A stretch of DNA of 53,071 bases from an uncultured Clostridia bacterium (GTDB taxonomy: Bacteria; Bacillota; Clostridia; Monoglobales; Monoglobaceae). The notes beneath the pieces are model-generated. The model was not told the origin of the DNA. It made no database searches and saw only the letters and a list, made by a program, of their open reading frames with translations. Shown piece by piece: positions 2,129 through 52,835 of this stretch. The DNA lies in assembly GCA_947625905.1 (NCBI GenBank), contig CANQQJ010000025.1:1-53071 (forward strand). Direction: 5' to 3'. Both the position numbers and the translations under genes were made by a program. Numbering within the stretch: the first letter of the stretch is position 1; each line of letters opens with the position of its first letter.

Positions 2129-2282
2129 GCCGAAAATCAAATTTGTGCAAACTGCATAAAAATATTTATAATTATTGGTTATTATTCGGTTGCCTTTTGG
2201 AGCCGTATGATGTAAAATTAAATAGTTAAGGTATAATTTCAATACGGTTATATTAATAATTTTACATATCGGAGGTAAATCT

Positions 2283-4346
2283 ATGAAAGTTTACGAAACT
2301 TCAAAAATCAAAAACTTCTGTCTGCTGGGTCACGGCAACTCCGGCAAGACAAGTCTGGCGGAGGCCATGCTCTACACCGCCGGAAACATCGACAGAATGG
2401 GCAAAACTCAGGACGGTACGGCCGTTATGGACTTTGACCCCGAGGAGATCAAGCGCAAGTTTTCGATCTCCGCGGCGCTGGCGTCCTGCGAGTGGAACGG
2501 CAACAAGCTGAATATTCTCGACACGCCCGGATATTTTGACTTTGTGGGCGAGGTTCAGCAGGTCCTGCGCATCACCGACGCGGCGATCATCGTGATCTCC
2601 GGCGAGGCCGGCCTTTCGGTAGGCGCCGAGAAGGCTTGGAAATACTGCGAGGATTACGGCATTCCCAAGATGATATTCATAAACAAGGTCGACGACGACC
2701 GCGTTGATTATCAAAAGGTCCTGCAGCAGCTCAAGGATAAGTACGGCAAGAAGATAGCGCCCTTCCAGCTCCCCATCAAGGATGGCGACAAGATCACGGG
2801 CTTTGTTAACGTGGTTGAGCAGGAGGCCAGGATCTTTGACGGAAACCGCACGATCACGGGCGAGATGCCCGCGGGCATAGAGGACGAGCTCGAGGAAAAC
2901 CGCGAGATGATCAAAGAGGCGGTCGCAGAGCAGTCGGAAGAGCTTATGGAAAAATATTTCGAGGGCGAGGAGTTCACTCTGCCCGAGATGTACGCCGCGC
3001 TGCGCACAGGCGTGGCCGAGGGCGACATAGTTCCGGTCCTCTGCGGAAGCGCGACCAAGAACCTGGGAATCCCCTCGCTGCTTAACGCAATCAACGCTTA
3101 CTTCCCGGCTCCCAACGACAAGGCCGAGAACATCAGCGCCAAAGGCCCCGGCGACAAGGTTATCGAGCTTAAGGTCGATTCGGGCGATACGCTGAGCGCG
3201 CTGGTATTCAAGACGGTCGCCGACCCGTATGTGGGCAAGCTTTCATACTTCAAGGTATTCTCCGGCGTTATGACGCCCGACACCACGGTTTATAACTTAA
3301 ACCGCGACTGCAACGAGAAGATAGGCAAGATATACACCATGCAGGGCAAAAAGCAGACCGAGATAGCTCAGCTCAACGCGGGCGATATCGGAACGGTCAC
3401 CAAGCTTTCAAAGACCAAGACCGGCGACACGCTGAGCCGCGTTGGCAATCCCTGCATGCTGGACGGAATCAAATTCTCAAAGCCCAACATGGAGCTGGCG
3501 GTCGTATCCCAGAAGAAGGGCGACGAGGACAAGATCGCTCAGGGCCTCATCAAGCTGATGGACGAGGATCAGACCTTCGCGTTTGAGACCAACAAAGAGA
3601 CGCGCCAGCAGCTGCTCAAGGGTCTCGGCGACCAGCATATCGACGTTATCGTTTCAAAGCTCAAGAACAAGTTCGGCGTTGACATTTCGTTTGAGACGCC
3701 AAAGGTTCCCTACCGCGAGACGATCCGCAAGAAGGTAAAGGTAGAAGGCAAGCACAAGAAGCAGTCGGGCGGACACGGTCAGTATGGCCACGTTTGGATC
3801 GAGTTTGAGCCCTCCACGGAGGAAGGCTTGACGTTCGAGGAGAAGATCTTCGGCGGCAGCGTTCCCAAGGGCTATTTCCCGGCGGTCGAAAAGGGCCTGC
3901 AGGACGCGATGAAGCACGGAATTCTGGCGGGTTATCCCATGGTCGGCCTCAAGGCCACGCTGGTAGACGGCTCGTACCACGAGGTAGATTCGTCCGAAAT
4001 GGCGTTCAAGACGGCGGCTTCGCTGGCCTATAAGGCGGGTATGCCCCAGGCTTCGCCCGCGATACTTGAGCCTATCGGACATTTGAAGGTTTACGCGCCC
4101 GACAGCTACACCGGCGACATCATCGGTGATATCAACAAGCGCCGCGGCCAGATGCTGGGCATGGAGCCCATCGGCGGAGGCATGACGATGATAGAAGGCG
4201 AGATCCCCATGGCCGAGATGCACACCTACGCGTCCGACCTGCGCTCGATGACTCAGGCCAGAGGCGACTTCGAGTTCGAGTTCGAGCGTTATCAGGAGGC
4301 TCCTCAGAACGTAGTCGAGAAGATCATAGCCGATTCGGGCAAATAA
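2283..4346 (+). CDS. Elongation factor G-like GTPase (EF-G paralog)
   Basis: A 687-residue translational GTPase with EF-G domain order: G domain (about 1-265), domain II (about 300-380), then domains III-V. Visible motifs are P-loop GHGNSGKTS (residues 17-25), DTPGYFDF (G3) and NKVD (G4). In canonical EF-G the P-loop reads GHIDAGKTT, and this GHGNSGKT version marks the EF-G-like paralog group of Clostridia, so the main fusA is probably elsewhere. GGAGGT at 2271-2276 sets the start. A TATAAT at 2231-2236 may be its -10. It stands alone between two terminators. Whether it translocates, recycles ribosomes or relieves stalls is not shown by sequence. Confidence 0.88.
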   Translation: MKVYETSKIKNFCLLGHGNSGKTSLAEAMLYTAGNIDRMGKTQDGTAVMDFDPEEIKRKFSISAALASCEWNGNKLNILDTPGYFDFVGEVQQVLRITDAAIIVISGEAGLSVGAEKAWKYCEDYGIPKMIFINKVDDDRVDYQKVLQQLKDKYGKKIAPFQLPIKDGDKITGFVNVVEQEARIFDGNRTITGEMPAGIEDELEENREMIKEAVAEQSEELMEKYFEGEEFTLPEMYAALRTGVAEGDIVPVLCGSATKNLGIPSLLNAINAYFPAPNDKAENISAKGPGDKVIELKVDSGDTLSALVFKTVADPYVGKLSYFKVFSGVMTPDTTVYNLNRDCNEKIGKIYTMQGKKQTEIAQLNAGDIGTVTKLSKTKTGDTLSRVGNPCMLDGIKFSKPNMELAVVSQKKGDEDKIAQGLIKLMDEDQTFAFETNKETRQQLLKGLGDQHIDVIVSKLKNKFGVDISFETPKVPYRETIRKKVKVEGKHKKQSGGHGQYGHVWIEFEPSTEEGLTFEEKIFGGSVPKGYFPAVEKGLQDAMKHGILAGYPMVGLKATLVDGSYHEVDSSEMAFKTAASLAYKAGMPQASPAILEPIGHLKVYAPDSYTGDIIGDINKRRGQMLGMEPIGGGMTMIEGEIPMAEMHTYASDLRSMTQARGDFEFEFERYQEAPQNVVEKIIADSGK

Positions 4347-4359
4347 TTTAAAAATCAAA

Positions 4360-4384
4360 AGAGCCGCGCCGCGGCTCTTTTTTT
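4360..4384 (+). terminator. Intrinsic terminator after EF-G-like gene
   Basis: Stem AGAGCCGC (4360-4367), loop GCC, GCGGCTCT (4371-4378), then T7. Confidence 0.9.
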
Positions 4385-4403
4385 GCGTGAAAACTCATTA
4401 AAT

Positions 4404-5837
4404 TTATATCTTTTTTAGCTCGAACCAAAAGGTGCTTCCGCGGTTTTCTTCGCTTTCAACTCCGAAACGCGCGCCGTGGGCGGTCAGTATCTCTTTCACT
4501 ATCGAGAGACCCAGCCCGTTTGAGCCGCGCTCTTTTGACGTGAAGTATCTGTCCCAAATATGCGGAAGGTCGTCGGGACTTATGCCGCCGCCGTTGTCTC
4601 GTATCTCGGCCCGTGCGGACTCTCCGCTGTCCTTGACCGAGACATAAACGCGCCTGTCGCCGCCCGCGTGGGCGGCCGCGTTTGAGATCAGGTTATACAG
4701 CACCTGCTCTATCCTGCGCTTGTCCGCCGAAACGTATTTTTGCGGCTCGATCTCGGTGATTATTTCGGTGCCTTCCGTTTCGCACACCGCCGCGAATTGT
4801 TCCGCCGTGCTTTGGGCGAGCGCGCTCAGGTCAAAACGCTCAAATTCATAGGCCGCCGCGCCCGACTGCAGCTTCGAATAGTCGAGTATATCGTTTACCA
4901 AAAGCGTCAGTCTGTCAGATTCGCGGATTATGACCTCCGCGTCTTTGGCCGACTCTTCCGAGCCGTCGAGGTCGCGTATCAGCTCCGCGTAGCCTTTGAT
5001 CATGGTGAGGGGCGTGCGCAGATCGTGGGACACGTTCGCCATTAGCTCGCGGCGCAGCTTGTCGGTCTCGGCGATCCTGCCCGCGGCGTACTCGAGAGAA
5101 TCGGCGAGCTCGTCGGTCTCGGCGCAAAAGCCTCTGCTGAATTTCACGTCAAAATCACCGCTCGCCATTTTGAGCGACTGCCGCGACAGTTCCGAAAACG
5201 GCTTTGAAAATCTTTTTGATATCCAGATCGCGATAGCGAGGCCGATAAGGAGCGCCAGGATCGTGACGGCGCACAGCTGGAGCCTGAGTATCGACACCGC
5301 GGAGCCGACCGCGCCCAAAACGGTATTTATGTACAGGATATTTCCGTCATCGAGCCGCCGTCCGTATACAAGCGTGCCGTCTCCGTCTTCGCGGTCGATA
5401 GTGTAGCACACGCTGTCGTTTGAGCCCAGCTTTTCCAGAAAATCGTCGTAGTGCTCGGGCAGGCGGCGGTATGTCTGCTCCTGCCAGTTTTGCGCCTCAC
5501 CCGCCTTGTACGGGTTTTTGCCGCCGCCGTGGCCGCGCGCGTCGTCACCGTACGACGGGCTGTACTCGTCGGCGCTGTGCAGGATATTGCCCTCGCTGTC
5601 GGTCAAAAGTATCAGTATCGAGTTTTGAGCTGCCAGCGTGTCTATCGCGTTTTCCGCGCTGTCTCCGGCCTCGCTGATCTTTTCGGCGATATTGCTTATC
5701 CTGTGCTTTTGCATGCCGGTGTAAAAGCTCTGCAAAAAGACGGTTTGCAGCAGCCACAGAACCGCCAGTATGACCGCCGCGAAAGCGGTGAAATATATCC
5801 ACAGCTTAAATCCGATAGATTTAGTTTTCGGTTTCAA
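4404..5837 (-). CDS. Membrane sensor histidine kinase
   Basis: About 477 residues. Two membrane helices (LWIYFTAFAAVILAVLWLL and LCAVTILALLIGLAIAIWIS) flank an extracytoplasmic sensor of about 150 residues, followed by HAMP, HisKA with the phospho-accepting His in NVSHDLRTPLTMIKGY, and an HATPase with NLISNAAAHA, DNGGGI and GLGLSIVKEI. The open frame extends to a TTG at 5867, but a TTG at 5837 is 12 bp after GAGGGG and leaves only a 17-bp overlap with the regulator gene, so 5837 is preferred. It phosphorylates the regulator encoded just upstream; the sensed signal is unknown. Confidence 0.9.
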   Translation of the reverse strand: MKPKTKSIGFKLWIYFTAFAAVILAVLWLLQTVFLQSFYTGMQKHRISNIAEKISEAGDSAENAIDTLAAQNSILILLTDSEGNILHSADEYSPSYGDDARGHGGGKNPYKAGEAQNWQEQTYRRLPEHYDDFLEKLGSNDSVCYTIDREDGDGTLVYGRRLDDGNILYINTVLGAVGSAVSILRLQLCAVTILALLIGLAIAIWISKRFSKPFSELSRQSLKMASGDFDVKFSRGFCAETDELADSLEYAAGRIAETDKLRRELMANVSHDLRTPLTMIKGYAELIRDLDGSEESAKDAEVIIRESDRLTLLVNDILDYSKLQSGAAAYEFERFDLSALAQSTAEQFAAVCETEGTEIITEIEPQKYVSADKRRIEQVLYNLISNAAAHAGGDRRVYVSVKDSGESARAEIRDNGGGISPDDLPHIWDRYFTSKERGSNGLGLSIVKEILTAHGARFGVESEENRGSTFWFELKKI

Positions 5838-44741: not shown

Positions 44742-45842
44742 TTGAAACAGTTTAACGTTGGAATTATCGGAGCCACGGGAATGGTGGGGCAGCGGTTCAT
44801 CACCCTGCTTTATGACCATCCGTGGTTTAATATAAAGCTGCTGGCCGCCTCCCCGAGAAGCGCCGGCAAAAAATATGTCGAGGCGGTCGGAAAACGCTGG
44901 TCAATGCCGGTCGAGATCCCCGAGTCGGTGCGCGATATGGTCGTGTACGACGCGGCGGCGGACGTTGAAAAGATAGCGAAGCAGGTTGACTTCGTGTTCT
45001 GCGCGGTCGATATGAAAAAGGACGAGATCAAGGCGCTTGAGGAAAAATACGCCAAGGCCGAGTGTCCGGTCGTATCCAACAATTCGGCCCATCGCCACAC
45101 TCCCGACGTGCCGATGATAATTCCGGAGATCAATCCGCAGCACCTTGAGATCATAGAGGCGCAGAAAAAGCGTCTGGGTACTAAGCGCGGCTTTATCGCG
45201 GTCAAGTCCAACTGCTCGCTGCAGTCGTATCTGCCCGCTCTGGCGGTCATAGATCAAAAGTACCCGATCGACAAGGCGCTCGTCACCACCTATCAGGCGA
45301 TATCGGGCGCGGGCAAGACGTTTGAGAGCTGGCCCGAGATGGTTGACAATCTGATCCCCTATATCGGCGGAGAGGAAATGAAGTCGGAGGTCGAGCCCAA
45401 TAAGATACTGGGCGAGATCAAGGGCGGCGAGATCGTGCCTTCCGATAAGCTGAGCATCGAGTGCCAGACCTACAGAGTTCCGGTTTCGGACGGTCACACG
45501 GCGGCGATATTCTTCAGCTTCAAAGACAGCGCAAACAAGCCCTCGGTCGAGGAGATCGAGAACATGTGGAGAGAGTTTGAGGGCGAGCCGCAGAAGCTTA
45601 AACTGCCCCACGCTCCCAAGCATTTCATATATGTGTACACGGAAAAGGATAATCCCGATATGCCCCGGATCAAAGAGGCGCGCGAGATAGACGGCGGAAT
45701 GGCCGTATCCTGCGGCAGGCTGAGAGAGTCGGCGCAGTACGACTACAAGATGGTCTCGATGAGCCACAACACTCTGCGCGGCGCGGCCGGCGGAGCGGTG
45801 CTCATGGCGGAGCTGCTTGCGGCAAAGGGCTATTTGGATTGA
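44742..45842 (+). CDS. asd: Aspartate-semialdehyde dehydrogenase (archaeal/yeast-type)
   Basis: 366 residues. NADP-binding GATGMVGQRF (residues 10-19), catalytic Cys in KSNCSLQSY (about 154-162), and RVPVSDGHTA with HNTLRGAAGG. This length and the HRHTPDVPMIIPEIN segment fit the archaeal/fungal-type enzyme rather than the Escherichia coli type. It reduces aspartyl phosphate to the semialdehyde that feeds lysine, threonine and methionine. Starts at TTG 44742 with AAGGAGG 10 bp before. First gene of the operon asd-dapA-dapB-ACT. Confidence 0.95.
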   Translation: MKQFNVGIIGATGMVGQRFITLLYDHPWFNIKLLAASPRSAGKKYVEAVGKRWSMPVEIPESVRDMVVYDAAADVEKIAKQVDFVFCAVDMKKDEIKALEEKYAKAECPVVSNNSAHRHTPDVPMIIPEINPQHLEIIEAQKKRLGTKRGFIAVKSNCSLQSYLPALAVIDQKYPIDKALVTTYQAISGAGKTFESWPEMVDNLIPYIGGEEMKSEVEPNKILGEIKGGEIVPSDKLSIECQTYRVPVSDGHTAAIFFSFKDSANKPSVEEIENMWREFEGEPQKLKLPHAPKHFIYVYTEKDNPDMPRIKEAREIDGGMAVSCGRLRESAQYDYKMVSMSHNTLRGAAGGAVLMAELLAAKGYLD

Positions 45843-45890
45843 TATATTTTTGACTGATATATTATAATATTTAAGAAAGGATTTTCGGAT

Positions 45891-46781
45891 ATGAAAGAGC
45901 CTATTTTCACCGGCAGCGGCGTGGCGATCATCACGCCGTTCACCGAAAACGGAGTTAATTACGACAAGATGGGCGAACTGATAGAGATGCACATCGCTCT
46001 CGGGACCGACGCGATCATCGTGTGCGGCACCACGGGCGAGTCGGCCACCATGCCCGACGATGAGCACGAAGAGGTCATTCGCTACACGGTCGAGAAGGCC
46101 GCGGGCAGGATAGCGGTCGTCGCCGGCACCGGCAGCAACGATACGGCTCACGCTGTCGAGCTGAGCAAGTACGCCGAGAGCGTAGGCGCCGACGGACTTC
46201 TTGTGGTCACTCCGTATTATAACAAGACGACCCAGAAGGGACTTTACGCTCACACAAAGCTTATCGCCGAAAGCGTCAAGATCCCGATCATACTTTACAA
46301 CATTCCGAGCAGGACGGGCGGCCTCGGTTTCAAGATCGAGACGCTCAAAAAGCTGGCGCAGCTTCCCAACGTCAACGCCATCAAGGAAGCAACCGGCGAC
46401 CTGGCGTTTGTGGCCGAGGTGGCGGCCGAGACAGACCTCAACATCTACGCGGGCAACGACGATATAATCGTTCCGGTCATGTCGCTCGGCGGCAAGGGCG
46501 TTATCTCGGTCCTCGCCAACATCCTGCCCAAGGAGACCCACGACATATGCGCCCTGTTCGAGAACGGCGAGCTCGAAAGATCCAGAGAGCTGTTCTTAAA
46601 GCATCTTGATTTGATACATAAGCTGTTTATCGAGGTCAATCCCATTCCGATAAAGACCGCCATGAATATGCTCGGCTACGGCGCCGGTCCTCTCAGGATG
46701 CCCCTTTGCGACATGGAGGACGGCAGCAAGGCTGTTCTCAAGGCGGCGCTTGAAAATATGGGCGTCGGCTGCAAATTATAG
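45891..46781 (+). CDS. dapA: 4-hydroxy-tetrahydrodipicolinate synthase
   Basis: 296 residues. GTTGESATM (about 44-52), catalytic Tyr in VVTPYYNKTTQKGL, Arg in YNIPSRTG, and the Schiff-base Lys in NVNAIKEATGDL (about 165). It condenses pyruvate with aspartate semialdehyde, the first committed step of lysine/diaminopimelate synthesis. GAAAGGA precedes the ATG. Confidence 0.96.
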   Translation: MKEPIFTGSGVAIITPFTENGVNYDKMGELIEMHIALGTDAIIVCGTTGESATMPDDEHEEVIRYTVEKAAGRIAVVAGTGSNDTAHAVELSKYAESVGADGLLVVTPYYNKTTQKGLYAHTKLIAESVKIPIILYNIPSRTGGLGFKIETLKKLAQLPNVNAIKEATGDLAFVAEVAAETDLNIYAGNDDIIVPVMSLGGKGVISVLANILPKETHDICALFENGELERSRELFLKHLDLIHKLFIEVNPIPIKTAMNMLGYGAGPLRMPLCDMEDGSKAVLKAALENMGVGCKL

Positions 46782-46798
46782 TTTTCGGGGTGATACAA

Positions 46799-47557
46799 AT
46801 GACAAAAATTTTATTAAGCGGATCCGGCGGCCATATGGGCAAAGCCGTGGCGAGAGTCTGCGAAAAGACCTCGGGCGTTGAGATCGTTGCAGGATGCGAC
46901 ATACACGCCGACGGCAGCGAAAATTTTCCTGTTTACGCGAAGCCCGGCGAGGTCAAAGAGGAGTTCGACGTTATTATTGACTTTTCCCACCCGTCGGCCT
47001 TTGACGGGATAATCGACTGCGCGGCGGGCACGAATACTCCCGCGGTCATCTGCACCACCGGACTCAGCGACGGACAGAAGGCAAAAATGACCGAGGCGGC
47101 AAAGTCCGCGCCGATATTCTTTTCGGCGAACATGTCTATCGGCATCAATCTTTTGATAGACTTGGCTTGCAAGGCGGCGCGGCTGCTTGAAAACAATTTC
47201 GATATCGAGATAATAGAAAAGCACCACAACCAAAAGCTGGACGCGCCCAGCGGCACGGCGCTGGCCATATCCGACGCCATATCCGACGCGGTGAGCTTTA
47301 GCCCCGAGTATGTCTACGACCGCCACTCGGTGCGCCAAAAGAGAGGCAAGACCGAGATCGGCCTCCACGCGGTGCGCGGCGGAACGATCGTCGGCGAGCA
47401 CGACGTGATCTTCGCGGGCACCGACGAGGTGATAGAGCTCAAACATTCGGCCGCCTCAAAAGAGGTGTTCGCCGTGGGAGCCGTCAAGGCCGCGGCGTTC
47501 ATGAAGGGCAAGCCGGCCGGCATGTACAGCATGAAGGATCTGATCGAAAACTCTTAA
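46799..47557 (+). CDS. dapB: 4-hydroxy-tetrahydrodipicolinate reductase
   Basis: 252 residues. NAD(P)-binding GSGGHMGKAV (about 7-16), CTTGLSDGQK, and the substrate-binding EKHHNQKLDAPSGTA with catalytic His/Lys; GRTEIG-like GKTEIGLHAVRGG is also present. It follows DapA in the pathway. The ATG at 46799 is chosen over GTG 46790 because GGGGTGA is the ribosome binding site. Confidence 0.96.
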   Translation: MTKILLSGSGGHMGKAVARVCEKTSGVEIVAGCDIHADGSENFPVYAKPGEVKEEFDVIIDFSHPSAFDGIIDCAAGTNTPAVICTTGLSDGQKAKMTEAAKSAPIFFSANMSIGINLLIDLACKAARLLENNFDIEIIEKHHNQKLDAPSGTALAISDAISDAVSFSPEYVYDRHSVRQKRGKTEIGLHAVRGGTIVGEHDVIFAGTDEVIELKHSAASKEVFAVGAVKAAAFMKGKPAGMYSMKDLIENS

Positions 47558-47578
47558 TCTGAGCAGGAGGATATATTT

Positions 47579-48034
47579 ATGATAAAAACCATCACCGATA
47601 TAAAATTTTTCTCGGGAATCGCTATCGTGACGCTCAACAACGTTCCCAACGACCCGGGCAGCGTTGCGCGCATTTTGGAGATAATCGCGGAAAACGGCAT
47701 CAGTATCGACATGATAAGCCAGACCGCGCCCTATAAGGACAGCATAAACCTGTCGTTCACTTTGTCGGAGGACGACCTGGCGGCTGTGATCGGTCTCACG
47801 GGCAAGTTCAAGTCGCTGTCGCCCAAGGTCTCGGCCGATATAAACGGCAACAACACCAAGATATTGCTCAGCGGCGAGGGAATGCGCAGCGAGGCGGGCG
47901 TGGCGGCGCAGCTGTTCGCGCTTTTGGCGGCGGAGGATATAAGGGTCAAGCTGATAACCACGGCCGAAACCGAGATATCATGCCTGATAGATATCAAAGA
48001 CGTCGAGACCGCCAAAAAGATTTTGGAAAAATAG
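47579..48034 (+). CDS. Free-standing tandem ACT-domain protein
   Basis: 151 residues: two ACT domains resembling the regulatory half of aspartate kinase. The first begins GIAIVTLNNVPNDPGSVARI with SIDMISQ; the second has KILLSGEGMRSEAGVAAQLF and TTAETEISCLID. There is no kinase domain. Last gene of the asd-dapA-dapB operon, 21 bp after dapB. The context suggests it senses lysine or another aspartate-family amino acid and controls an enzyme of the pathway, perhaps an aspartate kinase lacking its own ACT domains; the partner is not in the window. Confidence 0.85.
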   Translation: MIKTITDIKFFSGIAIVTLNNVPNDPGSVARILEIIAENGISIDMISQTAPYKDSINLSFTLSEDDLAAVIGLTGKFKSLSPKVSADINGNNTKILLSGEGMRSEAGVAAQLFALLAAEDIRVKLITTAETEISCLIDIKDVETAKKILEK

Positions 48035-48199: not shown

Positions 48200-48676
48200 A
48201 TGACACGAGTACTGTTTATATGCCACGGCAATATTTGTCGGTCGCCGATGGCTGAGTTTTTGTTCAAGGATATGGTGAAAAAGGCGGGGCTTCGGGATGA
48301 TTTTCTGATCGAGTCGGCGGCCACCAGTTATGAGGAGATCGGCAACCCCGTGCACCCGGGCACCAAGCGCAAGCTGGCGGAGCGGGGCATCTCTGCCAAG
48401 GGCAAGCGGGCGCGGAAGCTGCTTAAATCCGACTATGACAAATACGATCTGTTCATCGGGATGGACAGCGCCAACATACGCAATATCAACAGGATATTCG
48501 GCGGCGACCCGGAGAGCAAGGTCAAAAAGATGCTCGAGTTCGCCGGGAGCTATGACGATGTGGCGGACCCGTGGTACACGGGAAATTTCGAGGTCACGTA
48601 CGACGACATAATGAGAGGCCTTAGCGGCCTTTTTAAGGAGCTTACAGGGAAAGAATATCGGGCGCGGCAGAGGTGA
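48200..48676 (+). CDS. Low-molecular-weight protein tyrosine phosphatase
   Basis: 158 residues, a complete member of the family. The catalytic loop C-x5-R-S is CHGNICRS (residues 9-16), and the general acid Asp is in VADPWYTGNF. It removes phosphate from protein Tyr, or in some Gram-positive relatives from Arg. Its ORF ends 5 bp before the TetM-like gene, so the two are probably coupled. The substrate is not known; no kinase partner is in view. Confidence 0.93.
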   Translation: MTRVLFICHGNICRSPMAEFLFKDMVKKAGLRDDFLIESAATSYEEIGNPVHPGTKRKLAERGISAKGKRARKLLKSDYDKYDLFIGMDSANIRNINRIFGGDPESKVKKMLEFAGSYDDVADPWYTGNFEVTYDDIMRGLSGLFKELTGKEYRARQR

Positions 48677-48681
48677 TAGTT

Positions 48682-51324
48682 TTGAAAAAAATCGTTTTCG
48701 GAATACTGGCTCACGTGGACTCGGGCAAAACGACTTTGTCCGAGGCTTTACTGTACCTAAGCGGTGAGATACGCCGGCGCGGCAGGGTCGACCACGGCGA
48801 CGCCTTTCTTGACACCAACGCCATCGAGCGCGACCGCGGCATCACCATATTTTCAAAGCAGGCGCAGCTTATGCGCGGCGATACGCGATTCACGCTGGTC
48901 GACACGCCGGGGCACGTGGACTTCTCGATGGAGACCGAGCGCGCTCTGTCGGTCCTGGACTGCGCGGTGCTTGTTATAAGCGGGACCGACGGGGTCCAGA
49001 GCCACACCGAGACACTGTGGCGGCTGCTTGAGCGGTACGATATCCCGACATTTATTTTTGTGAACAAAATGGATTTAAACGGATTGGGGCGCGAGAAGCT
49101 GAGCGCGGAGCTCAAAAAGCGTCTGAGCGACGGCTGCCTCGATTTTTCGGAGATCGGCGCGCCCGAGTTCTCGGAGAGCGCCGCGATGTGCGATGAGGAG
49201 ATATTGAACGCCTATCTTGAGGGCGGGGAAATAAGCGCCGATATGCTGCGCCGCGCCATAAAAAAGCGCGAGATATTTCCGACTTTTTTCGGTTCCGCGC
49301 TGAGATGCGAGGGCGTCGAGGAGCTGCTTGACGCCCTTGCGGAGTATTCGGTCATGCCGAAATACAAAAAGGAGTTCGGCGCGAGAGTGTATAAAATCTC
49401 CGAGGATGAGCGCGGGACCCGCCTGACCCATATGAAAATAACCGGAGGGACCCTCAAGGTCAAGGACGTGATAGGCGGCGAGGACCGCGACGGCTCCGAG
49501 TGGAGCGAAAAGATAGACCAAATCAGGATATACTCGGGCGAAAAATTCACGACGGCCGACACCGCCGAGGCGGGGACCGTCTGCGCGGTCCAGGGTCTGA
49601 CCCGATCCTATCCCGGCCAGGGTCTGGGCGCCGAGCATAACTCAAAGGCCGCGCTGCTCAGCCCGGTGCTGGCGTACACGGCGCGGCTGCCCGAGGGCAC
49701 CGACATCCACGCGGCCCTTCGGAACCTGCGGATACTTGAGGAAGAGGAGCCCCAGCTCGGTATAATCTGGAACGAGCAGCTGCGCGAGATACAGATCCGG
49801 CTGATGGGCGAGATCCAGACCGAGGTGCTGAGCCGCGTTATCCGCGAGCGGTTCAATATGGACGTGGAGTTTGTGCGCGGCAGCATAGCCTACAAGGAGA
49901 CGATCAAAAACATCGTCGAGGGCGTCGGCCACTACGAGCCGCTGAGGCATTACGCCGAAGTGCATCTGATACTTGAGCCCGGCAAGCCGGGCAGCGGACT
50001 GCGCTTCGCCTCAAAATGCGGCGAGGACAAGCTGGACAGGAACTGGCAGCGGCTGATATTGACGCACCTAAAAGAAAAGACGCATTTGGGCGTGCTGACG
50101 GGCTCGCCGATAACCGATATGAAAATAACGCTGGCGTCGGGCCGCGCCCACAAAAAGCACACCGAGGGCGGCGACTTCAGACAGGCGACCTACAGGGCGG
50201 TGCGCCAGGGGCTCAGACAGGCGGAGAGCGTGCTGCTCGAACCGTGGTACGAGCTGCGCATCGAGGTGCCGACCGACTGCGTGGGCAGGGCGATGAACGA
50301 CGTTATCACGGCGGGCGGACGGATAAACCCGCCCGAGACCGACGGCGAAAACTCGATAATAACCGGCTCGGCGCCGGTCAGAGGCATGGTCGATTACGCC
50401 GCCGAGCTGGCGGCGTACAGCGGAGGAAGGGGCAGGTTTTCCTGCATACCCGGCGGATATTTCCCCTGCGCCGACGCGGAAAGCGTTATCGAGGAAATAG
50501 GCTACGACTGCGACGCCGACACCGAAAACACGGCCGACTCGGTTTTCTGCTCCCACGGCGCGGGATATCCGGTTCGGTGGGACGAGGTGCCCGAGCATAT
50601 GCATCTTGAGAGCGAGCTCAAGAGAGCCGAGGAGCCGCGGGCGGCAGAGGGCCGCGCGCGGGTGAGAGAGTTTGTGGACAGTATTGCCGCCGATAAGGAG
50701 CTGATGCGGATATTCGAGCGGACATACGGCCCGATCAGACGGGAGATCGCAGGCGACGAGCCCGCGCGGCGCTCAAGCGCGGTCATGCCTTCCGCGCGGC
50801 CGAAGAGCGGGAGCCGCGCGTCGGCCGCCGCTAAGAGAAGGCAAAACGGAGACGACTATCTTCTGGTCGACGGCTACAATATAATTTTCGCGTGGGACGA
50901 GCTCAAAAAATTCGCCGACGACAACATGGAGACGGCGCGCATGAAGCTTGCGGATATTTTGTGCAATTACCGCGGCTTCAAAAAGTGCGAGGTTATTCTG
51001 GTTTACGACGCGTATAAAGTGAAGAACAATCCCGGCGAGGTCGAGCGCTACCACAATATCGACATTGTGTACACAAAGGAGCGGGAGACCGCCGATATGT
51101 ATATCGAAAAGACCTCCCACAGGCTGAGCAAAAACAACCGCGTCCGCGTGGCCACGTCGGACGGGCTTGAACAGCTGATAATCCTGGGCGGCGGCGCGCT
51201 GCGGATCTCGGCATCTGACCTGAGAGCCGAGATCAAAGAGGCCGAAAGCGAGATAAAAGATTATATGAAGTCGCTCGGCCTTGGCGGGTCCCTTGAAAAG
51301 CGCATAGAATTTGAAACAGAATAA
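48682..51324 (+). CDS. TetM-like ribosomal GTPase fused to a Rae1/YacP-type NYN ribonuclease domain
   Basis: About 880 residues. The first 660 or so follow the TetM/EF-G plan: P-loop AHVDSGKTT (residues 8-16), RGITI (G2), DTPGH (G3), NKMD (G4), then domains II-V, with DSVFCSHGAGYPVRWDEVPE near the end. An Arg/Ser/Ala linker (about 675-722) leads to a C-terminal NYN/PIN-like domain (about 723-870): LLVDGYNIIFAWDELKKF, VILVYDAYKV, YTKERETADMYIEK and VATSDGLEQ, keeping the acidic residues of the YacP/Rae1 family. Rae1 of Bacillus cuts mRNA in the ribosomal A site. TTG 48682 is preferred over GTG 48673 as AGAGGTGA precedes it. True tetracycline resistance is unlikely. Confidence 0.85.
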   Translation: MKKIVFGILAHVDSGKTTLSEALLYLSGEIRRRGRVDHGDAFLDTNAIERDRGITIFSKQAQLMRGDTRFTLVDTPGHVDFSMETERALSVLDCAVLVISGTDGVQSHTETLWRLLERYDIPTFIFVNKMDLNGLGREKLSAELKKRLSDGCLDFSEIGAPEFSESAAMCDEEILNAYLEGGEISADMLRRAIKKREIFPTFFGSALRCEGVEELLDALAEYSVMPKYKKEFGARVYKISEDERGTRLTHMKITGGTLKVKDVIGGEDRDGSEWSEKIDQIRIYSGEKFTTADTAEAGTVCAVQGLTRSYPGQGLGAEHNSKAALLSPVLAYTARLPEGTDIHAALRNLRILEEEEPQLGIIWNEQLREIQIRLMGEIQTEVLSRVIRERFNMDVEFVRGSIAYKETIKNIVEGVGHYEPLRHYAEVHLILEPGKPGSGLRFASKCGEDKLDRNWQRLILTHLKEKTHLGVLTGSPITDMKITLASGRAHKKHTEGGDFRQATYRAVRQGLRQAESVLLEPWYELRIEVPTDCVGRAMNDVITAGGRINPPETDGENSIITGSAPVRGMVDYAAELAAYSGGRGRFSCIPGGYFPCADAESVIEEIGYDCDADTENTADSVFCSHGAGYPVRWDEVPEHMHLESELKRAEEPRAAEGRARVREFVDSIAADKELMRIFERTYGPIRREIAGDEPARRSSAVMPSARPKSGSRASAAAKRRQNGDDYLLVDGYNIIFAWDELKKFADDNMETARMKLADILCNYRGFKKCEVILVYDAYKVKNNPGEVERYHNIDIVYTKERETADMYIEKTSHRLSKNNRVRVATSDGLEQLIILGGGALRISASDLRAEIKEAESEIKDYMKSLGLGGSLEKRIEFETE

Positions 51325-51543: not shown

Positions 51544-52835
51544 ATGTCTAGATTTTCAAGAAAGGTTAAAAACAAATTGCTCCGTATAATTTCTGATATG
51601 GATAAAACTCCATGGATGTTTGCTAAAAATCCTAAAGCGGATTTCTCCAGAAAGAGTCCTCTATCTCTTAAAACTATGCTCAATTTCTTAATATCTATGG
51701 AAGGACAGCCTATTCATCAGGAACTGTATGAGTTTTTTAAGTTTGAAACTGATACTCCGTCAGCCTCTGCCTTTGTTCAGCGCAGAAGCAAAATTGATAT
51801 ATCCGCTTTTAAGTATCTGTTTCGTAAATTTAACGCATCTTTTAAATCGTCTCGTATGATGAACGGATACAAATTACTCGCCGTAGATGGTTCCGATTTA
51901 CATACCCCGACTAACTCCTCTGATTCGGCTTCGTATTTTAAATTATCTGATACTTCCAAAGGATATAATCTGTTTCATTTAAATGTTTTGTATAATCTTT
52001 TAGATAAAAGATATGAAGATGTAATTTTACAGCCACGCCGTAAATTTAATGAACACAGCGCCTTATGCGATATGGTGGATAAATCCAATATTGGAAGCAA
52101 AGTAATAATATTGGCTGACAGAGGATATGAAGGATACAATACGATTGCTCATATAGAGCAAAAAGGATGGAATTATCTGATTCGTATAAAAGATAAAACC
52201 GGAATAGCCGCGCAGCTAACGCTTCCACAAAGTGATGAATTTGATATAAACATTGATCTGACTCTTTCAAGAAGACAACTCAAAGAGATGAAATCACAGC
52301 CCGACAAATACCGATTGATAATGTCAAATATGATTTTTGATTACCTTCCCAAAGGAAGCAAGGAAACATATCAAATGAAATTCAGAATTATCAGAGTAAA
52401 AATATCGGACAATGTGACTGAGACATTGGTTACAAATTTGCCGAGAGAAACATTTTCGCCGGTTGCTATAAAAAGATTGTATAATATGCGTTGGGGAATT
52501 GAGACATCTTTTAGAGAACTCAAATATAATGTCGGGTTGGTAAATTTTCACAGCAAAAAGGCGGATTTCATTATTCAAGAAGTATATGCACGCCTGATAA
52601 TGTATAACCTCTCAATGATAATAACCAGAAACGTATGCATACAACAAGATGGTCGAGCATATAAATATATGCTATGGCAATCTTCATATGCAAATACTTC
52701 ATGAAGAATAAAGAAAATCCGCCTAATGCTGAAGCGCTGATAGCGAAAAACATACTTCCTATCCGCCCGAATCGTAAGTATAACAAAAATATTCGCTACA
52801 AAACATCAGTGAGCTTCATATATAGAGTAGCATAA
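51544..52835 (+). pseudogene. IS4-family transposase, frameshifted near the C-terminus
   Basis: The first frame runs 386 codons to a stop at 52702-52704. DDE-type signatures are present: LLAVDGSDLHTP, ILADRGYEGYN, and the IS4 motif Y-x2-R-x3-E-x6-K as YNMRWGIETSFRELK. A shift of frame near 52660-52675 lets the normal C-terminus continue: AMAIFICKYFMKNKENPPNA ... LPIRPNRKYNKN ... VSFIYRVA, ending at 52833-52835. The intact protein would be about 430 residues. AGGAGGT precedes the ATG. It is probably inactive unless recoded or the shift is a sequencing error. Confidence 0.85.

Follow-up and report, generated by a model that had tools for sequence, protein, structure and literature searches.

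Introduction

Rae1, also called YacP, is among the few cellular enzymes described as cutting messenger RNA (mRNA) in the ribosomal aminoacyl site (A site), and no settled answer is known to the question of what brings it to the right ribosomes. The subject of this account is a gene in which a Rae1-type ribonuclease domain follows a GTPase shaped like the elongation factor EF-G. It lies on contig CANQQJ010000025.1 of an uncultured Clostridia bacterium of the family Monoglobaceae, and the whole stretch analysed, 53,071 nucleotides long, is referred to as the window. The same architecture was noted in ten Clostridiales “Tet” proteins, for which ribonuclease-based drug resistance was guessed (Atkinson 2015, PMC4342817, as far as the portion of the text covered goes), so that the first-pass annotation of the window, which knew of no described function for such a fusion, had been anticipated in print as regards the architecture. 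No other mention of the fusion was found in the literature searched, a body of texts with the main Rae1 papers outside it.

The architecture itself being known, the new finding is that the fusion resembles a substitute for free Rae1, one without the tail and equipped with a candidate delivery module. Judging from the sequences compared, we consider it rather probable that this protein is the organism's Rae1, i.e., an A-site mRNA endonuclease for stalled or slow ribosomes that is carried by an EF-G-shaped GTPase.

An intact fusion with a conserved nuclease core

The fusion is real: both halves are encoded in one open frame without internal stops, from GTG 48673 to the stop at 51324, and residue numbers throughout follow the 883-residue count from this GTG. 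The in-frame TTG 48682, with which the uninterrupted frame of the first-pass annotation began, appears to be the better start, because GTG 48673 sits within a GAGGTG stretch and homologues from the same genus have their ATG starts in line with the TTG.

The second half belongs to NYN_YacP, with a Pfam score of 168.3 bits against a curated cut-off of 24.6 over residues 730-866, and it matches the solved YacP structures 5mq8 and 5mq9 at 2.2e-23. All the motifs from which this domain had first been read (VDGYN, VYDAY, ERETAD, and TSDGLEQ) are present. The residues D733, D779, D808, E812, and D830, together with N736, which we take to be catalytic, are retained almost without exception: D830 occurs in 99% of the 82 fused sequences aligned and in 100% of 30 separate YacPs, and the other five in 100% of both sets. 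In comparisons of the window protein with its homologues L010 and L011, the NYN domain is 95 and 94% identical, with a ratio of nonsynonymous to synonymous substitution rates (dN/dS) of about 0.05, followed by the extension of residues 601-650 (94 and 90%) and domain IV of the GTPase (91%, dN/dS about 0.09), while the G domain is the least conserved of these parts (77%, dN/dS about 0.15). These figures point firmly to strong constraint on the predicted nuclease core.

Between the halves lies a linker whose predicted helix, residues 674-687, carries the motif DxELxxI[FY]xxTYG, followed by a stretch rich in Lys, Arg, and Pro. In its strict form the motif is found in 61 of 73 fused proteins, and in its relaxed form in 78 of 87 unique fused sequences, as against none of 23 NYN-less ones. 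The opposite holds for the C-terminal tail LEKxR[KR], which 28 of the 30 free YacPs compared possess, 15 of these 30 belonging to one family of the GTDB taxonomy (f41), and which is absent from all 87 unique fused proteins. With a relaxed pattern the counts become 29/30 and 4/87, and among the four fused matches that of L113 seems to be a genuine relic of the tail. At this place the sequence of the solved YacP is FEKLRRG (R165-R166). R166 falls in the basic tail, and in Bacillus subtilis the Rae1 change R166P was one of the suppressor mutations interpreted by the authors as loss of function (PMC6613710, in the part of the text covered).

These two elements bear on a rival account, in which a GTPase of unknown duty and a Rae1 have separate jobs and share a gene for co-expression only, with no mechanical coupling. 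A linker that is long and mostly of low predicted local distance difference test score (pLDDT) would suit such an arrangement, but neither the conservation of the helix motif nor the disappearance of the tail of free YacPs from the fused form would be expected from it, and we regard it as unlikely.

Distribution of the fusion and fate of the free gene

The class sample comprised 392 genomes from the class to which the window belongs; in 354 of these, completeness is 90% or more and contamination 5% or less. The survey proposed by the first-pass annotation, of how often the two domains are fused in Clostridia, gave the following counts: the GTPase was matched at E ≤ 1e-140 in 156 genomes, 132 with the fusion and 24 with a short NYN-less form, where the 132 is a count by elimination that includes three genomes without a listed frame (G251, G380, and G386), all 132 being NYN-positive. 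About one genome in three of the class sample thus has the fusion, mostly as a single copy. Among the 150 GTPase rows listed, 126 are in frames of at least 780 residues, 21 in frames of 640-720 residues, and three in shorter ones. The middle group consists of 20 NYN-less forms and G345, whose NYN domain is in a neighbouring frame of the same contig; the shorter rows are a split gene in G011, a cut one in G274, and an additional fragment in G112. Another four genomes (G169, G207, G238, and G346) fall beneath the E limit with a partial match, and their frames suggest a fusion. A wider sample of the phylum held the GTPase at E ≤ 1e-100 in 32 of 398 genomes, with 25 of these in frames of at least 780 residues.

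The split gene of G011, a member of the window's genus, is found at locus L154 (1630-4259, minus strand), where the fusion is divided near domain V into overlapping frames of 584 and 345 residues, by either a real break or an assembly error.

NYN_YacP itself occurs in 250 of the 392 genomes, 249 of them above the Pfam cut-off, and the matches listed, 150 of about 250, fall into two main sizes, with 79 in frames of at least 700 residues, 65 in frames of at most 220, and six between. The two forms are very rarely kept together. The fusion is the sole NYN_YacP found in the window's own genome, a point beyond the first-pass annotation, and only four of the 392 class genomes have two NYN matches, of which G334 alone has a fused and a separate copy above the cut-off; the second matches of G168, G226, and G260 score about 21 bits and are below it. 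Such rarity suggests that the fusion and the free yacP share a function. A weak second match of this kind (19.8-21.5 bits, profile positions 3-49, frames of 159-173 residues) is seen in G168, G226, G260, G364, G101, and G072 and recurs in genus g43, where it is probably another small NYN family.

The separate yacP has a usual place, mrnC-rlmB-yacP-sigH (gene names read from translations), with sigH in the flank of 26 of 27 separate loci and rlmB in that of 22. The fusion gene of the window lies outside this locus. The fate of the usual position was followed in 48 genomes searched for sigH, of which 34 were tested for remnants and 30 had rlmB and sigH together; the remaining 14 of the 48 had no rlmB match or no good sigH. 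The window's own genome showed no rlmB within 1.5 kb upstream of sigH. An intact yacP fills four of the 30 slots, those of G057, G215, and G101, which have no fusion, and that of G334. The other 26 belong to fused genomes, G207 being counted as such by inference since its fusion is cut by contig ends, and none holds an intact yacP: the slot is either empty or contains debris. Ten of these 26 gaps match YacP better than all 200 of their own 200 dinucleotide shuffles, where about 0.13 such cases would be expected. Five remnants are strong (G072, 1e-16; G146, 5e-10; G394, 2e-7; G124, 4e-5; G207, 2e-4), and five are weaker (G206, G185, G349, G120, and G188, with E from 7e-4 to 0.02), and the translated gaps show stops and frame changes.

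On the grounds of this debris-holding or empty slot and of the near-exclusion, the latter counted without correction for kinship and both drawn from a sample in which many genomes are split into dozens or hundreds of contigs, the fusion appears to be a replacement for free Rae1. The states are mixed within single genera. In g43, a free yacP is found in G101, where the GTPase has no match at 1e-60, and the fusion and a remnant in G072; in g179, G334 has both forms and G394 a remnant. Because of this mixture, the free yacP was probably lost more than once.

A probable single origin of the fused form

Two quick trees, with 69 and 79 rows, place the fused GTPases in one group, with support of 99 and 96 in the Shimodaira-Hasegawa-like approximate likelihood ratio test (SH-aLRT), which was used throughout in place of the bootstrap. 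Next to it is a group of the NYN-less sister GTPases (80 and 86), and a split with support of 100 separates both groups from Tet(M), Tet(S), and related proteins. The first tree held 40 of the 79 fused rows, i.e., every second one, with L150, L003, and L105 left out for want of a frame; the second held 48 fused rows, after ten named rows had been dropped (seven fused and three Tet-like), with L312 lacking a frame.

Both halves are retained in 48 of the 49 rows that make up the fused clade of the larger tree, which counts against a gene shared for co-expression only. The exception, a copy from Ligilactobacillus salivarius that is nested in the fused clade without an NYN domain, would favour that alternative, yet it reads as a secondary loss. 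This copy (L240, 2501-4420) is on a 360-kb plasmid, where an ISL3 transposase gene adjoins it, and its annotation is that of a tetracycline resistance protein.

A tree of the NYN domains, built from 43 of 82 fused rows and all 29 separate ones, likewise clusters the fused domains (97), with one separate NYN inside the cluster, that of L060 (genome G261), which may be a donor or a split-off. L060 has neither rlmB nor sigH nearby and still ends in a tail-like stretch, and its genome also encodes an NYN-less GTPase. One fusion event, followed by descent with few losses, appears to be the best account of these trees, and the sequences show a fusion that is unbroken and has been passed on as a whole.

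The GTPase half

The first half of the protein has the features of a translational GTPase of the EF-G fold, as the first-pass annotation had recognized. The alignment confirms all five G motifs (G1 AHVDSGKT, G2 RGIT, G3 DTPGH, G4 NKMD, and G5 GSAL), and domains G, II, III, IV, and V follow one another in the expected plan. With the motifs retained, including the histidine of DTPGH, the GTPase should hydrolyse GTP. The matches listed from a structure search with the predicted fold are EF-G-type chains. The protein scores below the NCBIfam model of the EF-G equivalog, TIGR00484, with 299.5 bits against a cut-off of 659.4, and its own genome has two separate EF-G-type proteins besides it. One of these is in the window at about 2199-5555 (L003, a frame of 706 residues with a strong EFG_IV match), and the other is on contig C34.

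The label “TetM-like” that this half first received is right for the domain plan, which EF-G and Tet proteins share, and does not extend to family membership. The best NCBIfam model is indeed tet_protect (NF012153), but the score is 405.5 bits against a cut-off of 775. The tip loop of domain IV reads HxKHTEGGDF or near it in most of the fused and NYN-less rows, in place of the YSPVSTPADF of Tet(M) and Tet(S). The proline of the Tet(M) loop in question is residue 512 of 642 in the tet(M) reference sequence, which we read, from a three-residue offset, as the canonical Pro509 that is located in the tetracycline site (PMC8161019, in the part of the text covered). The window protein has Lys at this position, as have 99% of the 79 fused and 94% of the 18 NYN-less sequences compared. 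The extension after domain V contains DSVFCSHGAG, which is common to the NYN-less sisters.

These features weigh on the suggestion of antibiotic resistance, by which a Tet-type ribosomal protection protein would turn its ribonuclease on the ribosomal RNA or mRNA of drug-bound ribosomes (Atkinson 2015, PMC4342817, as above). The EF-G/Tet domain plan and the leading, if sub-threshold, tet_protect match are in keeping with it, as is the RefSeq name of the Agathobacter rectalis gene that holds an NYN match, a TetM/W/O/S family resistance protein; the gene of Monoglobus pectinilyticus is labelled “translation factor GTPase family protein”. Against this stand the Lys in place of the tetracycline-site proline, the clade separate from Tet(M)/Tet(S), the lack of a recurrent neighbour (the largest family is found in 8 of 76 loci), and a presence in about a third of the class sample, where the gene is seemingly replacing a resident cellular one. 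Moreover, G009, a member of the window's genus, has the fusion and also two genes that fall in the Tet(M)/Tet(S) clade. Taken together, a resistance function strikes us as quite improbable.

Proposed function

A ribosome-directed device that cuts mRNA, as proposed by the first-pass annotation, is supported as the most economical function to be read from these sequences. We infer that the fusion does Rae1's work and that it is delivered by the GTPase, with the linker helix taking over the docking that free Rae1 would achieve alone. The background to the mechanism comes from PMC10100781, PMC12320835, and PMC6613710, in the parts of these texts that were covered. At the factor site, the GTPase would dock on a ribosome whose A site is idle, domain IV would enter the decoding region, and GTP hydrolysis would let it withdraw. 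The NYN domain, on its tether of roughly 75 residues, would then cut the A-site mRNA and so leave a non-stop complex for transfer-messenger RNA (tmRNA) and mRNA decay. The own genome has a tmRNA. The order of these steps and the role of GTP are a guess. The A site is the location given both for Rae1 and for an EF-G-type domain IV, and for this reason domain IV and the NYN domain would have to act in turn.

A stricter version of this mechanism makes the GTPase a dedicated Rae1 loader, whose binding and GTP hydrolysis at the idle A site time the NYN cut. We put it forward tentatively, as an idea with somewhat less than even prospects. If true, such a GTP-gated nuclease would unite the clearing of the A site and the cleavage of mRNA in a single enzyme, and it would have taken the place of free Rae1 in roughly half of the sampled NYN_YacP-bearing genomes of the class.

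Several points weigh against the fusion being a GTPase-delivered Rae1. Rae1 and domain IV could not occupy the A site together, and GTPase delivery is not needed in principle, because the Rae1 of B. subtilis is a separate protein. The loss of the tail could mean altered specificity instead of a new docking partner, and the contrast in tails is itself weakened by the many free YacPs of one family. In three more distant pairs (L012-L014), for which synonymous sites are near saturation, NYN identity exceeds that of the G domain but is below that of domain IV. No yacP remnant above all shuffles was found in 16 of the 26 rlmB-sigH gaps of fused genomes. Both the binding of the fusion to the ribosome and its cutting of RNA are predictions from sequence.

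The NYN-less sisters add to these points. Separate NYN_YacPs are found in 17 of their 24 genomes, as against 101 of 236 other non-fused genomes (Fisher p 0.01; 97 of 232 and p 0.009 after removal of four probably cut fusions, both without correction for kinship), so that outside fused genomes the link between the NYN-less GTPase and a separate NYN is weak. The other seven sisters live without any NYN_YacP, which suggests that the GTPase has a job of its own and lends some weight to the account of two halves with separate jobs. We still favour the reading of a fused Rae1 over that account.

Genomic setting of the gene

The features of the gene are collected in Table 1.

Table 1. Coordinates of the fusion gene, its parts, and the gene before it, with the basis of each assignment
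Feature	Position	Strand	Basis
Low-molecular-weight protein tyrosine phosphatase gene	48200..48676	+	Pfam LMWPc 1.6e-34; directly upstream of the fusion
GAGGTG Shine-Dalgarno-like stretch (48670-48675) and TTG start codon (48682-48684)	48670..48684	+	Sequence; homologous ATG starts in register
Complete fusion gene	48682..51324	+	Open frame; 880 residues from TTG, 883 counted from GTG 48673
G domain, residues 7-225	48691..49347	+	Pfam GTP_EFTU E 1.2e-51; alignment
EF-G domains II and III, residues 235-400	49375..49872	+	EF-G_D2 and EFG_III matches weak, under Pfam cut-offs; predicted fold
EF-G domain IV, residues 403-518	49879..50226	+	Pfam EFG_IV 2.4e-19
Domain IV tip loop HKKHTEGGDF, residues 493-502	50149-50178	+	Group comparison; TetM counterpart YSPVSTPADF
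EF-G domain V (520-600) and extension (601-650)	50230..50622	+	Pfam EFG_C 520-600, 7.3e-17; alignment
Linker, residues 651-728	50623..50856	+	Model: pLDDT <50 in 653-672 and 688-724, helix between
NYN_YacP (Rae1) ribonuclease domain, residues 730-866	50860..51270	+	Pfam 1.9e-49

The stop codon of the upstream phosphatase gene (TGA 48674-48676) overlaps the ribosome-binding stretch of the fusion. This neighbour is not a recurrent one, being beside the fusion in 2 of 76 loci, and no other gene family recurs there, since the largest shared cluster has 8 of 76 loci, in mixed positions. The survey named 80 loci, three of them without a frame and two without a centre, and covered at most four frames per side in flanks of at most 6 kb. 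Just upstream of the phosphatase, at 44742-48034, is a lysine-pathway cluster (asd, dapA, dapB, and a protein of 151 residues that consists of ACT domains only), and after the fusion, in the same orientation, comes a DDE_Tnp_1 transposase gene (51544-52704). The window contains no tRNA and no Rfam family at the gathering threshold.

A phage origin was considered and rejected, as none of 29 relatives on viral contigs has the NYN motif. Most of them match at 26-30%, like Tet or EF-G proteins, and three are cut. The nearest, L280 and L281, have an NYN-less frame of 726 residues that starts at the first base of each contig, contains extra inserts, and is 51% identical in its best segment; they are probably the host flank of a provirus.

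The absence of the motif from viral contigs also counts against a ribosome-triggered growth-arrest or anti-phage effector with the NYN domain as its toxin. A nuclease on a protein of a ribosome-binding type could in principle shut down translation, for which there is no direct evidence, but the gene is widespread, mostly in one copy per genome, has no recurrent partner gene, and seems to take the place of a known cellular ribonuclease. We consider such a toxin extremely unlikely.

Comparison with known systems

The Clostridial Tet-NYN proteins of Atkinson 2015 (PMC4342817, in the part covered) have the same architecture and were the subject of a short remark and a guess. The present analysis adds the counts, one origin in the trees, the near-exclusion of fused and free forms, the yacP remnants, the loss of the tail, and the missing TetM proline.

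With Rae1/YacP of B. subtilis the fusion shares the NYN_YacP domain, the conserved acidic residues, and, as a rule, the state of one NYN_YacP per genome. It differs in that it sits behind a complete EF-G-shaped GTPase, is without the LEKxR[KR] tail, and is off the rlmB-sigH locus. Since the domain and the core agree with those of Rae1, while the tail and the locus do not, we call it a fused Rae1-type nuclease, which probably works like Rae1, and not a standard member of the family. The NYN-less clostridial sister GTPases, of about 655 residues, are 43-50% identical to it and have the same tip loop and extension, but neither the linker motif nor the NYN domain.

From Tet(M), Tet(O), and Tet(S) the fusion is set apart by its place outside the Tet(M)/Tet(S) clade, by KHTEGG in place of PVSTPA, by the DSVFCSHGAG extension, and by the NYN domain. 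Three of the family features examined, namely the NCBIfam cut-off, the proline, and the clade, are lacking, and for this reason the data speak against filing the fusions as Tet proteins. Labels of this kind, present in at least one RefSeq record, could inflate the counts of resistance genes in gut bacteria. For Rae1, the comparison is of use in another way, because a natural fusion names an EF-G-like GTPase as a candidate partner and makes delivery directly testable.

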